A program made the position numbers and the translations under genes. From Marinibacterium anthonyi (GTDB lineage Bacteria > Pseudomonadota > Alphaproteobacteria > Rhodobacterales > Rhodobacteraceae): a stretch of DNA of 64,000 bases. Below, piece after piece: positions 23,987-29,517 of this stretch (its first letter is position 1; every line of letters begins with the position of its first letter). The DNA lies in the NCBI GenBank assembly GCA_003217735.2, contig CP031585.1, forward strand, positions 1 to 64,000. Reading direction: 5' to 3'. The notes beneath the pieces were generated by a model that saw nothing but the letters and a program-made list of their open reading frames with translations, did not search any database and had not been told where the DNA came from.

Positions 23987-25177
23987 TCAGATCGCCTCGA
24001 CGGTCCCGTCGACGCCCAGATCCGCCAGTTGCCGGCGAATTTCGTCGATATAAAGCGCGTTGGACACCAGCACATCGGACACCGGCAGGTCCTTCAGGTC
24101 TTCGGGGGCAACCACCGGAAGCCCTGCGCCCGGAATGAACTGGCCGTGCTTGCGGGTGTTCAGGTCGATCAGCGTCGTCAGGTATTCACCGGACCCAAGC
24201 AACGCATTGGCAAAGGTGATGCCCTTGGACCCGGCGCCCCACAACGCGGCCTGTCTGCCGCCACGGGAAAGATCGGCGATCTTGCCGCTCCAGAATGCCA
24301 GCTTTTCCTCGGCCCGTTTGCGCATGCTGTCTTGCAGTTCGGCCATCTCCTGGCGGATGACGGCGTCGGGCAGGTAATCGGTGTTCCCGGTGTCCGGCAC
24401 CGCCTCGACCGACAGGAACTGTCCGCCATAGGCGCTGCGGATGCTCAGCGGCTTGAACCCGGCGCGGCGGAACAGCGTATCCAGCGCGGGGCCGGTCCAA
24501 TAGGTGACATGTTCATAGATCAGGTCCCAGATGCTGCAATCCTTCAGGATCCATTCGCCGTTGGGAACTTCGAAATACAGCACGCAGGACCGGTCACCGA
24601 CCGCATCGCGGATGTCCTTCATGAAAGTCAGCGGTTCGGTGATGTGTTCCAGCACGTGGCGACAGACGAGAAGGTCGAAATCGCTTTCCAGCTGCCCCTT
24701 GCGGAACAGTTCGGGCACGATCTGAACGTCGGGGGAGGTGGTGAATTCCGACGGGCGGTCTTTCATCGACGGATCGAACCCGATGGCGGACCCGACACCG
24801 TTTCGCTTCATCAGATCCAGGAAATACCCGTCGCCGCAGCCGATTTCGACCACCTGTCCACCGTCCAGCCCGTGGCGGGCGATCAGGTCGCGGCCCAGGT
24901 CCTCGGCGAAATCGCGGAACCGGGGCGAGAAATGCAGCGCGTTCTCGTAGCCGGTGGAATAGGCGATGGCGTCGGGCTGAAAGCTGCGGTTGGCCAGCAG
25001 GGTGCAATCGGGACAGAAGGACAGGTCGATCCCGATGGTGGGCGCCAGGCGGGCCGCGTCGGCGGTGGGCCAAAGCTGATTGCACAGCACCGGCTGGTTG
25101 CCCAGGCTGACGACATCGCGGATCGACGGGCTGCCGCAGCTTGGGCAGGTGCGGGGGGGCTGCATGATGCTGTTCAT
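23987..25177 (-). CDS. Class I SAM-dependent sugar C-methyltransferase (third of three)
   Basis: The 396-residue product has the architecture of sugar C-methyltransferases: an N-terminal zinc-binding module (CPSCG near residue 10 and CPDC about 45 residues later), a SAM-binding domain with VVEIGCGDGYFLDL, the active-site region LIYEHVTYWTG, and a C-terminal Rossmann-like domain with AALWGAGSKGITFAN. It overlaps the preceding gene by four bases. Homologues add a methyl branch at C3 or a similar carbon of a keto-sugar nucleotide. It is clearly a paralogue of the upstream methyltransferase and of the C-terminal half of the fusion protein. Confidence 0.88.
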   Translation of the reverse strand: MNSIMQPPRTCPSCGSPSIRDVVSLGNQPVLCNQLWPTADAARLAPTIGIDLSFCPDCTLLANRSFQPDAIAYSTGYENALHFSPRFRDFAEDLGRDLIARHGLDGGQVVEIGCGDGYFLDLMKRNGVGSAIGFDPSMKDRPSEFTTSPDVQIVPELFRKGQLESDFDLLVCRHVLEHITEPLTFMKDIRDAVGDRSCVLYFEVPNGEWILKDCSIWDLIYEHVTYWTGPALDTLFRRAGFKPLSIRSAYGGQFLSVEAVPDTGNTDYLPDAVIRQEMAELQDSMRKRAEEKLAFWSGKIADLSRGGRQAALWGAGSKGITFANALLGSGEYLTTLIDLNTRKHGQFIPGAGLPVVAPEDLKDLPVSDVLVSNALYIDEIRRQLADLGVDGTVEAI

Positions 25178-26394
25178 ACCGCCACCAGTTCGGGCGAGAG
25201 GCCAAGCCGCGCGAGGTCGGCGCCGATTTCGTCAAGGTAGACTGGGTTCATCACGATCACCGTATCTGGCGGATCCGCCTGCAGGGCCTCGGGGCCGGAA
25301 ACGGGCAGGCCCGTGCCGGGCAGGAAACGGCCCTGCTTGAAAGGGTTGATGTCGATCACGCGGGAAATCTCGGGGCCGAGGTCCAGCGAGGTCAGGAAGC
25401 TGACGCATTTCGACCCGCCACCCCAGACTGCCACGCGCTTGCCCATGGCGTGGCGGGATTGCACGAAGTCGCGCCAGTAGGCCATGCGTTCCGCAACCTT
25501 GGCCGGAAAGGCCGCGGCCAGGGCGCGCAGGTGGTCCAGCGATTCCTCGGCCTCGCAGGGGGGCAGGGGGGATCCGGTGGTAGGATGGGCGTTCTGGATG
25601 ATGTATTGGTCGCCATAGTCAAGCCGCAGGGCGGTGACGTCGAACCCCGCGGACCGGAACAGGCGCGCATGCGATCCCGGCGTGAAGTACGAGCAATGTT
25701 CGAAATAGATGTCCCAGAAGGCGCCTTCGTCCAGCACTCGACCCACATCCGGGGTTTCGAAAAAGATCGCGACATTGGGGCGGCCGCCCGTCATGTCGTG
25801 GATATCCTCCATGAACCGCCGCACGTCGCCGATATGTTCCAGCGTGTGCCGGCAGATCACCAGGTTGGCCACCACGTCCACGTGCGTGGGATCGAAATAT
25901 TCCCGTTGAAAGGTCAGCGACGCGCCCTCGGGCACGTCCAGCCGGTCGGTGATGAAGCCCGGGTCGATTCCCAGCGCATCACAGGGCACGGCCAGGCAGA
26001 GTTCGCGCAGGAAGTCGCCCTTGCCACAGCCGACTTCGACCACCTGGCGGCCCCGCAGCGGCCAGGTTTCGACGATCTCGGCCACCAGTTTCTTTGCGAA
26101 AGCGTTGAACGTGCCTGAGAAATGCTGCGATTCCTCGGTTGTCGACGAATAGTCGATCAGCCGCTCGTCGAAGGCCGCGTTGAAGACAAAGCCGCAGCCC
26201 TCGCAGAAGGTCATCCGCATCTCGTGGCGCGGAAAGGTCGCGCCCTCGTGCGAACTGTCCAGCAGGATGCAGCTTTGCACGGGGATCGACGGAAGGTGCA
26301 GCAGCTCGGTCAGATCCGTGCCGCCGCAGGCCGGGCAGTCGCAGCGGGGCACGACCTGCCAGGCCCGGGGTCCGGGAAGGGTCTCCTGCCTCAT
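25174..26394 (-). CDS. Class I SAM-dependent sugar C-methyltransferase (second of three)
   Basis: This 406-residue paralogue of its neighbours has zinc-binding CPACG and CEGCGF, SAM motif [28 protein letters not shown] in the active-site region and a C-terminal [14 protein letters not shown]. The start at 26394 overlaps the stop of the fusion gene by four bases. The open frame continues further upstream, but only as a shadow of that gene. The sequence has diverged clearly from the other two copies, which argues for distinct substrates or successive steps rather than recent duplication. Confidence 0.88.
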
Positions 26395-28712
26395 GACGGC
26401 ACCACCTCCATGTCCGGGATCGGCACGATGAAGCGGCCGCCGCCGGCCAGGAAGTCCTGCTGCTGGCGGATGATTTCCTCGCGGAAGTTCCATGGCAGGA
26501 TCATCACGTAGTCGGGCTTGTCCGACTGCAGCCTTTCGGGGTCGTCGATGCGCACGCGCACGCCGGGCATGTACTTGCCCTGCTTGTGGATGTTGCGATC
26601 CACCGCGTATTCGATCGCGCGGGAATTCAGCTGAAGGAAGTTCAGCATGATCGTTCCCTTGGCGGCCGCGCCATAGGCGGCGATGCGTTTGCCGTCCGCC
26701 TTCAGATCGCCGATCAGCTTGCGCGCCGCGTCGCGGAAGGCGCGGACCCGCTGGCCGAAGCTGGCGTAATAGTCGAACCGGTCCAGGCCCAGCTCGTGTT
26801 CTTCCGCCAGGATCCGGGTGACCGCTTCGGACGGGGTGTTTTCCTTGCCGAAGTACAGCCGCAGCGACCCGCCATGGATCGGCAACCGCCGCACGTCGTT
26901 CAGATAAAGCCCGTGCCGTTCGAACAGCGTCTTCGCCGAACCGACCGAGAAATAGCACAGGTGTTCGTGATAGATCGTGTCGAATTCGATGAAATCGATC
27001 AGGTCGCGCACATAGGGGAATTCGACCGACACGATACCGGTGTCCGCCAGCAGCGTCGCCATGCCCGCCACCAGGTCGTTCTGGTCGGCCACGTGGGCCA
27101 CGACGTTGTTGGCGATGATCACGTCGGCCTTGCGCCCCTGACCGGCCAGGTCGGATGCCAGGCGGGTGCCGAAGAAGTCGTTGATCGTGTCGATCCCCTT
27201 CTCGATCGCCGCTGTCGCCGGTTGCCTGGCCGGGTCGATCCCCAGAACCGGCACGCCCTTTTCCTTGAAGTTCTGCAGCATGTAGCCGTCGTTCGACGCG
27301 ATCTCGGCCACCAGGCTGTCAGGCCCCAAGCCCCGCATCTCGATCAGCTCAAGCGCGTTCTCGCGGCTGTGCTTCAGCAGATCCTCGGAGAAGGACGAGA
27401 AGTAGAGGTAATCGTCGCCGAACATCTCTTCCGCGGGCCGGGTTTCCAGCAGCTGGACCAGCGTGCAGCCCGGGCAGTAGCCCAGCCGCAGCGGCACCAG
27501 CGATTCCCGCCGGTCCAGGATCGAGGTGTCCAGCAGACCGTCGGACCGCGGCATCAGCCCAAGGTCCAGGATCGGCTTCAGCCCGTGGTGGCCGCAGGCG
27601 ATGCAGTCGACCTTGGCCGCGTCGGCCTCGAACGCCGGATCGATGGCCGCGTCGGGGGTGGACGCCCGCGCCGCGATCGCCTTGGGCGTATGGGTCAGCG
27701 TCTCGTCGATGATGCCGTCGCTGATCAGCTTCTTGATATGGCCGATCCGCTGGTACCGCGGCCCCTCGAATTCCTCGAGCGTCAGGTCCACCGCCTTGTA
27801 GGCTTCGTACAGCGACTGCGCGCCCTTGCGTGCGTCCCACTGCGGCTGGAAATGCGGCATCACGCGCTGGATCTTGTCGCAGTTCACCCGGTAGCTGCGC
27901 TTGTCCGGGCCCGCATCGTCGGCGAATGTCACCTGGCACCCGGGCACGACCGATGCCACGATCTCGGCCAGTTCCTTGATCTGGTAGTTGTGACCGGTGA
28001 CGCCGACGTTGAACGCCTCGTTGCGGATCACGTCGACCGGTGTCGACAGCGTGGCCAGGAAGGCGCGCGAGATATCCTCGATATGGGTGATGGGCCGCCA
28101 GGGCGTGCCGTCGGACTTCATGTGGATGTTGCCGGTGGTGACGGCCCAGGCGACCAGGTTGTTCAGCACCAGGTCGAACCGGGTGCGGGGGCTGACGCCA
28201 TAGGCCGTAGCCGACCGCAGGAAGGTCGGGCAGAAGCTGTCGTCGGCCATTTCGGCCAGCGCCTGTTCGGACCGCACCTTTGATATGCCGTAGGGCGTCA
28301 CCGGGTTGAAGGCGCCGGTTTCATCGATGAAATCGGGACCCGACGCACCGTAGTTGGAACACGACGACGAGAAGACGAACCGTTCGACCCCGGCCGCCTT
28401 CGCGGCGCGGGCGACGTTCATCGTGCCTTCGTAGTTGATCTCGTAGGTGGTTTCCGGGCGGAAATCCCCCAGCGGATCGTTCGACAGGGCGGCCAGGTGC
28501 AGCACCGCGTCAAAGCCCAGCAGATCGGCGGGCGTGATGGCGCGGATGTCCTTCAGCACGGTGGGCACGTCGGGCATTTCGCCGCCCGGTGCAAAGGTGC
28601 AGCGTTCGTAAAGATCGCTGTCGATGCCCAGGACGTCATGGCCGGCCTTGACCAGCATGGGCGTCAGCACGGTGCCGATGTATCCGCGGTGGCCGGTTAC
28701 AAGGACCTTCAT
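26391..28712 (-). CDS. Fusion: NAD-dependent epimerase/dehydratase + sugar C-methyltransferase
   Basis: A 773-residue two-enzyme protein. Residues 1-330 are an extended short-chain dehydrogenase with the NAD motif TGHRGYIG (6-13) and the catalytic YGISK (Tyr141, Lys145). Residues 330-365 form a linker. Residues 366-773 are a complete C-methyltransferase: zinc Cys at about 370, 373, 413 and 416, SAM motif [15 protein letters not shown], active-site YHEHLCYFS, and a C-terminal [15 protein letters not shown]. These activities are usually on separate adjacent genes. The frame runs unbroken across the junction. Four-base overlaps link it to genes on both sides. It probably makes a branched, reduced or epimerised CDP-sugar. 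Confidence 0.9.
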
Positions 28713-29491
28713 GCGTTCGCTTCCCAGACTGCCCAGGGACGGTTCCCGGTGTCCCAGATCTTCTGCAGCGTGTGCTTGTCGCGCAGCGTGTCCATCGCGG
28801 CCCAGAAGCCATCGTGGCGATAGGCCATCAACTGGCCGTCGCGGGCGAGGTTTTCCAGCGGCGCGTGTTCGAACATCACGTCGTCGCCGTCGATGTAGTC
28901 GAGGACTTCGGGTTCAAGGACGAAGAAGGCGCCGTTGATCCAGCCCTCGGCGGTCTGGGGCTTTTCCTCGAACGCCTCGACCCGGTCGCCGTCAAACCGC
29001 ATGTGGCCGTAGCGCGCCGGCGGACGGACCGCGGTGATCGTGGCCAGCTTGCCGTGCGACTTGTGAAACCGCAGCAGGTCGTCGATGTCGATGTCCGACA
29101 CGCCGTCGCCCCAGGTCAGCATGAAGGTGCTGTCGCCCAGGTAGGGCTTCAGCCGCTTCACCCGGCCGCCGGTCAGGGTTTCATCGCCGGTTTCGATCAG
29201 GTCGACCGTCCAGGGCGCATGTTCCTGTTCGTGGCGGACCAGCGTTTCATTGCCTTTCATGTCGACCGTCAGGTTGCCCGACAGCGTGCCGTATTCCATG
29301 AAATAGCGCTTGATATGGTCACCCTTGTACCCCAGCGCAACAACGAAATCGTTGAAGCCATAATGGGAGTAGATTTTCATGATGTGCCAGAGGATTGGAC
29401 GGTTTCCAATTTCGACCATGGGTTTCGGTCGTACCGACGTTTCCTCGGCCAAGCGGGTGCCTTTGCCTCCGGCGAGAATTGCAATTTTCAT
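28709..29491 (-). CDS. rfbF: Glucose-1-phosphate cytidylyltransferase
   Basis: RfbF makes CDP-glucose from CTP and glucose 1-phosphate, the entry to CDP-6-deoxy and branched sugars. The 260-residue product carries the nucleotidyltransferase motif [15 protein letters not shown] followed by [16 protein letters not shown] and the family-typical [17 protein letters not shown] and [13 protein letters not shown] choose ATG 29491, since MKIAILAGG matches the family start. An ATG at 29503 is also possible. A CDP-glucose 4,6-dehydratase gene (rfbG) is not present in the window. An intrinsic terminator lies 27 bases before the start, so expression probably requires read-through or a very short leader. 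Confidence 0.93.
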
Positions 29492-29517
29492 TTTGTTTCT
29501 CATTACCTGTTGGACAG

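Follow-up and report, generated by a model that had tools for sequence, protein, structure and literature searches.

The window analysed here is a stretch of 64,000 nucleotides of Marinibacterium anthonyi (Rhodobacteraceae; assembly GCA_003217735.2, contig CP031585.1, positions 1 to 64,000). It carries a genuine gene fusion in which an extended short-chain dehydrogenase/reductase (SDR) domain, residues 1-325, is joined to a complete zinc C-methyltransferase, residues 367-771, in one chain (Table 1). The open reading frame (ORF) was translated over 773 codons of the minus strand without internal stop; a plus-strand reading from 26391 is interrupted by stops. An earlier note on this DNA had reported the uninterrupted gene without naming its strand. 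It had also announced two complete domains, which was borne out by four Pfam matches above cut-off: Epimerase (residues 3-237, 148 bits), the Methyltransf_13 zinc domain (370-431, 55 bits), the Methyltransf_23 S-adenosylmethionine (SAM) methyltransferase domain (470-604, 51 bits) and Methyltransf_14 (611-766, 187 bits). Also, the SDR motif letters, cysteines 370, 373, 413 and 416 and a SAM region around residues 468-480 were found where that note had placed them.

Table 1. Coordinates of the fusion gene, its parts and the genes of the same cassette in the window.
Feature	Position	Strand	Remarks
SDR–C-methyltransferase fusion gene	26391..28712	minus	773 aa, ATG to TGA
SDR domain, residues 1-325, Cj1427-like	27738..28712	minus	S117-C118-S119, Y141, K145
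SDR tail and linker, residues 326-366	27615..27737	minus	
Zinc C-methyltransferase domain, residues 367-773	26394..27614	minus	TcaB9/MtmC/KijD1 fold; Y435, H540, Y581, E583, H584
Glucose-1-phosphate cytidylyltransferase (RfbF/DdhA type)	28709..29503	minus	TIGR02623 373 bits, cut-off 300; upstream of fusion gene
Second C-methyltransferase-like paralogue (MT2)	25174..26394	minus	PF13489 + PF08484
Third C-methyltransferase-like paralogue (MT3)	23987..25177	minus	PF13489 + PF08484

Of 579 confirmed relatives from a scan of genome contigs, the best 80 were submitted to ORF analysis. Both domains stood in one chain in 30 of these 80 best-matching loci, which gives the count proposed as a check in the earlier note. 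The two activities were separate neighbours in 47, in line with its statement that they are normally encoded by adjacent genes. One locus was a frameshift artefact (L062) and two were without a recovered SDR (L067, L074). This list is ranked by likeness to the fused query, so that fused and in-frame pairs are over-represented and the counts are no estimate of frequency. Split loci within L039-L063 were all in frame, and from L064 onward only L080 was; given this bias, the idea that in-frame split pairs signal read-through of a stop was set aside. The fused relatives (L011-L038, L048 and L049) are 53-91% identical to the window protein, and a complete circular Leisingera plasmid record has the same architecture annotated as one coding sequence, K3552_RS21095. 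Near-full-length stop-free matches (residues 1-755 or more, one 3-767; E limit 1e-60) were present in 12 of 394 sampled family genomes, the own genome included. In the class sample (E limit 1e-80), an uninterrupted match was seen in 1 of 385 genomes, namely the own one, a lower bound as two candidates were scored per genome in nearly all; in another class genome (G603), the match to residues 1-770 crossed one in-frame TGA. The sample of relatives gave 1 of 61, again the own genome, and no strong match was found in the two same-genus genomes searched (best E 5e-15). The fusion is thus a trait of patchy distribution, and the idea that it is unique to this genome was ruled out by the 30 loci, the plasmid record and the family genomes.

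The same recurrence answers one of the refutations proposed in the earlier note, namely a sequencing error at the junction. One artefactual fusion does occur among the relatives: locus L062 (7998-10289, a Thermoleophilia metagenome-assembled genome, MAG), at first a candidate 31st fusion and second bacterial fusion event, has a frameshift and an out-of-frame SDR tail, and was excluded from the counts. Its MT2 is broken too. However, with 30 other loci, a complete plasmid record and family genomes sharing the one-ORF form, the chance that an assembly or sequencing artefact lies behind the fusion is virtually nil.

A tree was built by a quick method without bootstrap from the SDR and C-methyltransferase columns (79 rows, 722 columns, junction excluded). 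The 31 true fused proteins (that of the window and 30 others) formed one side of a branch with a Shimodaira–Hasegawa-like approximate likelihood ratio (SH-aLRT) support of 98. The fused or split label required 2 changes on this tree, the second being the artefact L062, and none of 500 shuffles was as low. On this tree, the bacterial fusion has a single origin within the sample. Judged by locus titles, the members of the fused clade belong to Rhodobacterales and Hyphomicrobiales, apart from a Phycisphaera MAG (L038).

The second domain belongs to the zinc sugar C-methyltransferases of TcaB9 type (PF08421 + PF08484) by its Pfam domains, its four cysteines and catalytic residues, and its fold. 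Over 81 aligned rows, the four zinc cysteines were kept in 80, 77, 78 and 77, residues Y435, Y437, Y581, E583 and H584 in all 81, and H540 in 77. The five residues mutated in the PDB entries of TcaB9 (Y76, H181, Y222, E224 and H225, numbering from PDB titles) map to the fusion at a constant +359, and each has its counterpart there. The likeness to TcaB9, KijD1 and MtmC (PDB 3ndi, 4e2w-4e33; 5t64/5t67/5t6b; 4rv9) extends over the whole fold of residues 367-771, the zinc cysteines and the SAM region, with template modelling (TM) scores of 0.93-0.97 by target. These are however single-domain structures, and their entries with named ligands carry deoxythymidine diphosphate (dTDP)-type nucleotides, whereas the domain of the fusion is attached to an SDR and lies in a cytidine diphosphate (CDP)-sugar operon without dehydratase. 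MtmC, from mithramycin biosynthesis, is described in the accessible part of PMC5103430 as a bifunctional ketoreductase/methyltransferase. It resembles the fusion in using one chain for methylation and redox chemistry on a sugar; it differs in that its structure lacks an SDR domain and one methyltransferase chain is credited with the two activities.

The best solved relatives of MT2 and MT3 are the same sugar C-methyltransferases. In MT2, each zinc cysteine was present in 68 of 68 rows and the Y-x-E-H motif in 67 of the 67 rows with letters. In MT3, the motif is I-Y-E-H (48/48 rows), with Ile in place of Tyr222 of TcaB9 and the Glu and His retained, and the zinc cysteines were kept in 47/47, 44/47, 47/48 and 44/48 rows; its model (predicted local distance difference test, pLDDT, 93.8) matched MtmC, TcaB9 and KijD1 at TM 0.76-0.83. 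Judged by these residues, all three C-methyltransferases look active. The earlier note was silent on these two paralogues, which may outweigh the fusion for the product.

No NCBIfam model exceeded its cut-off for the SDR part of the window protein, nor for four split relatives; the CDP-glucose 4,6-dehydratase model TIGR02622 gave 27.9 bits (cut-off 278.45) and the UDP-glucose 4-epimerase model TIGR01179 (GalE) 94.8 bits (cut-off 262.3). The nearest PDB sequence was 6vo6 (Cj1427), which scored 115 bits while the runner-up reached 74, and the fold comparison likewise placed Cj1427 first among SDRs (E 6.9e-23, TM 0.84-0.89 by target). Both have in common the stretch R-x-A-T-x-x-G-x-S-P-R-x-R-x-D-L. 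At the triplet S117-C118-S119, the Cys was kept in 78 of 79 rows, and Y141 and K145 in all 79. At this place, RmlB of the own genome has T-D-E, two CDP-dehydratases have S-D-K and the reductase RmlD has T-D-Y; the identities of these controls were confirmed above family cut-offs. Thus, of the "epimerase/dehydratase" label given in the earlier note, the extended SDR stands; the domain is probably of the C4-dehydrogenase type exemplified by Cj1427 and not a 4,6-dehydratase. According to the accessible part of PMC10680097, Cj1427 is a C4-dehydrogenase whose tightly bound NADH is recycled by 2-oxoglutarate, that is, it oxidizes C4 without dehydration. Unlike the fusion, it is a stand-alone enzyme acting on a GDP-heptose, followed by separate epimerases and C4-reductases. 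Because S-C-S replaces the T-N-S of Cj1427, we say that the SDR may work like Cj1427, not that it is one.

The four genes of the cassette overlap by ATGA at all three junctions (28709-28712, 26391-26394 and 25174-25177), so they are probably translated as a coupled unit. The adjoining cytidylyltransferase agrees with the CDP-sugar context proposed in the earlier note, and its exopolysaccharide (EPS) setting was borne out by the families of the neighbouring genes: a polysaccharide pyruvyl transferase and a GT4 glycosyltransferase beyond MT3, and a Poly_export protein, a Wzz/AAA chain-length-type protein and a sulfotransferase on the other side. The neighbourhood therefore looks like an EPS region. 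The sulfotransferase gene (PF13469, 36007-37098), near the polysaccharide export genes, is a hint of a sulfated polymer.

Fused or split, the usual cassette is glucose-1-phosphate cytidylyltransferase, SDR, C-methyltransferase and one or two further C-methyltransferase paralogues. Counted at >150 bits, the cytidylyltransferase preceded the SDR by no more than 300 nt in 30/30 fused and 38/47 split loci; in the other split loci, it was elsewhere in 6 and not found in 3. Two extra paralogues were observed in 22/30 fused and 26/47 split loci, one in 5/30 and 11/47, and none in 3/30 and 10/47, several of the latter lying on short contigs. By locus titles, the cassette occurs in Alpha- and Gammaproteobacteria, Planctomycetota, Opitutales-type Verrucomicrobiota, Acidobacteriota and others. 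Some loci depart from this scheme. The long-branch fused pair L048/L049 is without MT2 or MT3, and the next ORF of L048 (10315-10890) clusters with a PF00908-type 3,5-epimerase (the member tested was from L031), which suggests a different product. In the Acidobacteriota-type split loci L058-L061, a nucleotidyltransferase of 33-37% identity follows the methyltransferase, and the nucleotide may differ.

A split example lies on pSymB of Sinorhizobium meliloti (L111, 685472-703773), with a cytidylyltransferase, an SDR (61%), a C-methyltransferase (52%) and further paralogues, as in the fusion operon; here the SDR and the C-methyltransferase are two separate genes. The stretch is unannotated in the record, and it probably corresponds to SMb21416 (ddhA), SMb21417 and SMb21418. 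A table of PMC4053727 names the probable counterpart of this SDR ddhB, CDP-glucose 4,6-dehydratase, and has it beside a 3-C-methyltransferase. TIGR02622 was not among the matches of this SDR at E 1e-5, and the dehydratase label is likely a misannotation. Thus, some genes listed as CDP-glucose 4,6-dehydratase are suggested to do something else.

From the domains, the catalytic residues, the conserved fusion and the operon, all of them observed, we infer a bifunctional nucleotide-sugar enzyme that would oxidize CDP-glucose at C4 and then C-methylate it, probably at C3, towards a branched non-deoxy sugar of the EPS; the evidence leans moderately towards this reading as a whole. In the proposed route, glucose-1-phosphate would be activated to CDP-glucose, and the SDR domain with bound NAD+ would oxidize C4 with the 6-OH kept. 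The CDP-4-keto-glucose would then be handed to the tethered C-methyltransferase, whose His/Glu/Tyr site would take the acidic proton beside the ketone (most likely at C3), the methyl coming from SAM. The C-methylated ketone would be reduced with the SDR's own NADH, in an oxidise–methylate–re-reduce sequence, or else by a reductase encoded elsewhere than in the cassette. Additional C-branches may come from MT2 and MT3, and the product would be a branched CDP-hexose for EPS. Among the parts of this route, a CDP-hexose substrate appears very likely, C-methylation at C3 likely, and C4 oxidation by the SDR fairly probable.

The last reduction was considered separately. By the SDR profile, other SDR-like ORFs were present in the flanks of 6 of 78 loci, or 5 of 77 after removal of L062, where the match was its own shifted tail. 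Since this screen (>15 bits) would miss RmlD of the own genome (12.4 bits), direct queries were added: RmlB, RmlD and CDP-dehydratase queries gave reductase candidates in 6 of 80 loci, and aldo-keto reductase (AKR) and Gfo/Idh queries, taken from ORFs of ten own-genome loci, gave no AKR match and one Gfo/Idh match in 80 loci. Within the flanks searched (46 of 78 loci measure 18 kb or more), no dedicated ketoreductase recurs near the cassette. For this reason, re-reduction of the ketone may be a further task of the SDR, a step that we consider possible but somewhat doubtful. A bolder proposal is a tethered, redox-neutral oxidise–C-methylate–re-reduce cycle on CDP-glucose, with MT2 and MT3 branching other carbons to give an EPS sugar with two or three C-methyls; it would make the cassette a widespread undescribed route to C-methylated, non-deoxy CDP-hexoses, and it seems unlikely.

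Several observations weigh against the C4 oxidation and C-methylation sequence. The SDR bears likeness to GalE-type epimerases also, and its identity to Cj1427 in the fold alignment is no higher than about 27%, Cj1427 having a GDP-heptose substrate and a different triplet. The Asp found in controls at the place of C118 is not specific to dehydratases, RmlD carrying it too, which makes the motif test weaker. The own genome holds RmlB and RmlD above cut-off and 12 AKR matches, so that helpers from outside are possible, and the regiochemistry of methylation goes beyond what can be read from sequence. As for the tether, the mean major-residue frequency of the linker is 0.45 (residues 339-366), compared with 0.83 and 0.77 in the two domains, and in many loci the homologues are split, which would make tethering dispensable if those are active.

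That the SDR is instead a CDP-glucose 4,6-dehydratase, and the cassette a conventional 6-deoxy C-methyl sugar pathway in which two steps have been joined, would agree with the adjoining cytidylyltransferase and with the ddhB listing in S. meliloti. We hold it to be very improbable, as both SDRs fall far from TIGR02622, as S-C-S, with its Cys in nearly all rows, replaces T-D-E or S-D-K, and as 27 of the 29 cassette genomes searched lack a CDP-glucose 4,6-dehydratase above cut-off (the genome of L062 was among the 29; the own genome has none). The SDR might also act after the methyltransferase, as a 4-ketoreductase or 4-epimerase that takes over a C-methylated keto-sugar, the ketone having been formed by an enzyme encoded elsewhere. 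The weak GalE and RmlD model scores would suit such a role, as would the lack of a recurrent separate reductase in the cassette and the presence, elsewhere in the own genome, of a gene for the dTDP-glucose 4,6-dehydratase RmlB (TIGR01181, 496 bits). Yet Cj1427, the closest relative, catalyses the oxidation (PMC10680097), and because 27 of 29 cassette genomes lack a CDP-glucose dehydratase, the keto-CDP-sugar would be without obvious source; this order of events is rather unlikely.

The fusion may also exist without channelling: a stop codon would have been lost between co-transcribed genes, the joined form being kept for stoichiometry or as harmless, with the chemistry of the split enzymes. 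This is compatible with C4 oxidation followed by C-methylation, and it deserves consideration at somewhat less than an even chance. It fits the variable spacing of the 31 fused proteins, in which 35-58 residues separate the first zinc cysteine, C370, from position 325, the split homologues in 47 of the 80 best loci, and the single stop codon that parts the frames in some split loci (such as L041, L045 and L054, from a list biased to in-frame pairs). Against it, one clade of 31 proteins persists in many genera, the whole-chain model is confident (pLDDT 93.1, predicted TM score 0.88; lowest block 351-360, at 67), and other SDR–C-methyltransferase fusions exist in viral sequences. Among the 50 PDB matches listed, no structure spanned both domains. 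The weak conservation of the linker is what a tether would show, and for channelling it is neither proof nor disproof; physical channelling of the keto-sugar, which the earlier note took the fusion to imply, is, in our opinion, possible, a little short of even.

The kinds of enzyme involved are known, and their fused form is conserved and apparently uncharacterised: no description of an SDR–C-methyltransferase fusion was found in the accessible parts of the literature searched, nor was a named sugar product of this multi-phylum cassette. If confirmed, the fusion would be a catalyst for carbon-branched nucleotide sugars keeping the 6-OH. To our knowledge, it would also be the first SDR–C-methyltransferase chain with a demonstrated reaction.

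Viral sequences were sampled as the best 80 of 507 viral-contig loci (L147-L225 range). All of them had a C-methyltransferase ORF above 60 bits and 32 also an SDR above 60 bits, often as neighbouring genes. In the phage record collection, 0 of 120 matching records reached 80% coverage. The best hit in the viral fold library was a giant-virus protein that also unites SDR and C-methyltransferase in one chain, from Klosneuvirus (BFVD A0A1V0SJ68, 743 residues, 795 aligned columns, 23% identity); its root-mean-square deviation of 22 indicates that the domain placement differs. Two environmental viral contigs, L168 (1-2598) and L221 (3-2363), carry an SDR and a C-methyltransferase in one ORF. Their SDRs show by eye a Cj1427-like R-F-x-T-x-x-G...R-x-D-L-M-x-N stretch, with low profile scores (60 and 77). 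The viral fusions seem to stand apart from the clade of the bacteria. It would thus appear that the two activities were brought together in other lineages as well, which speaks for a functional link between them.

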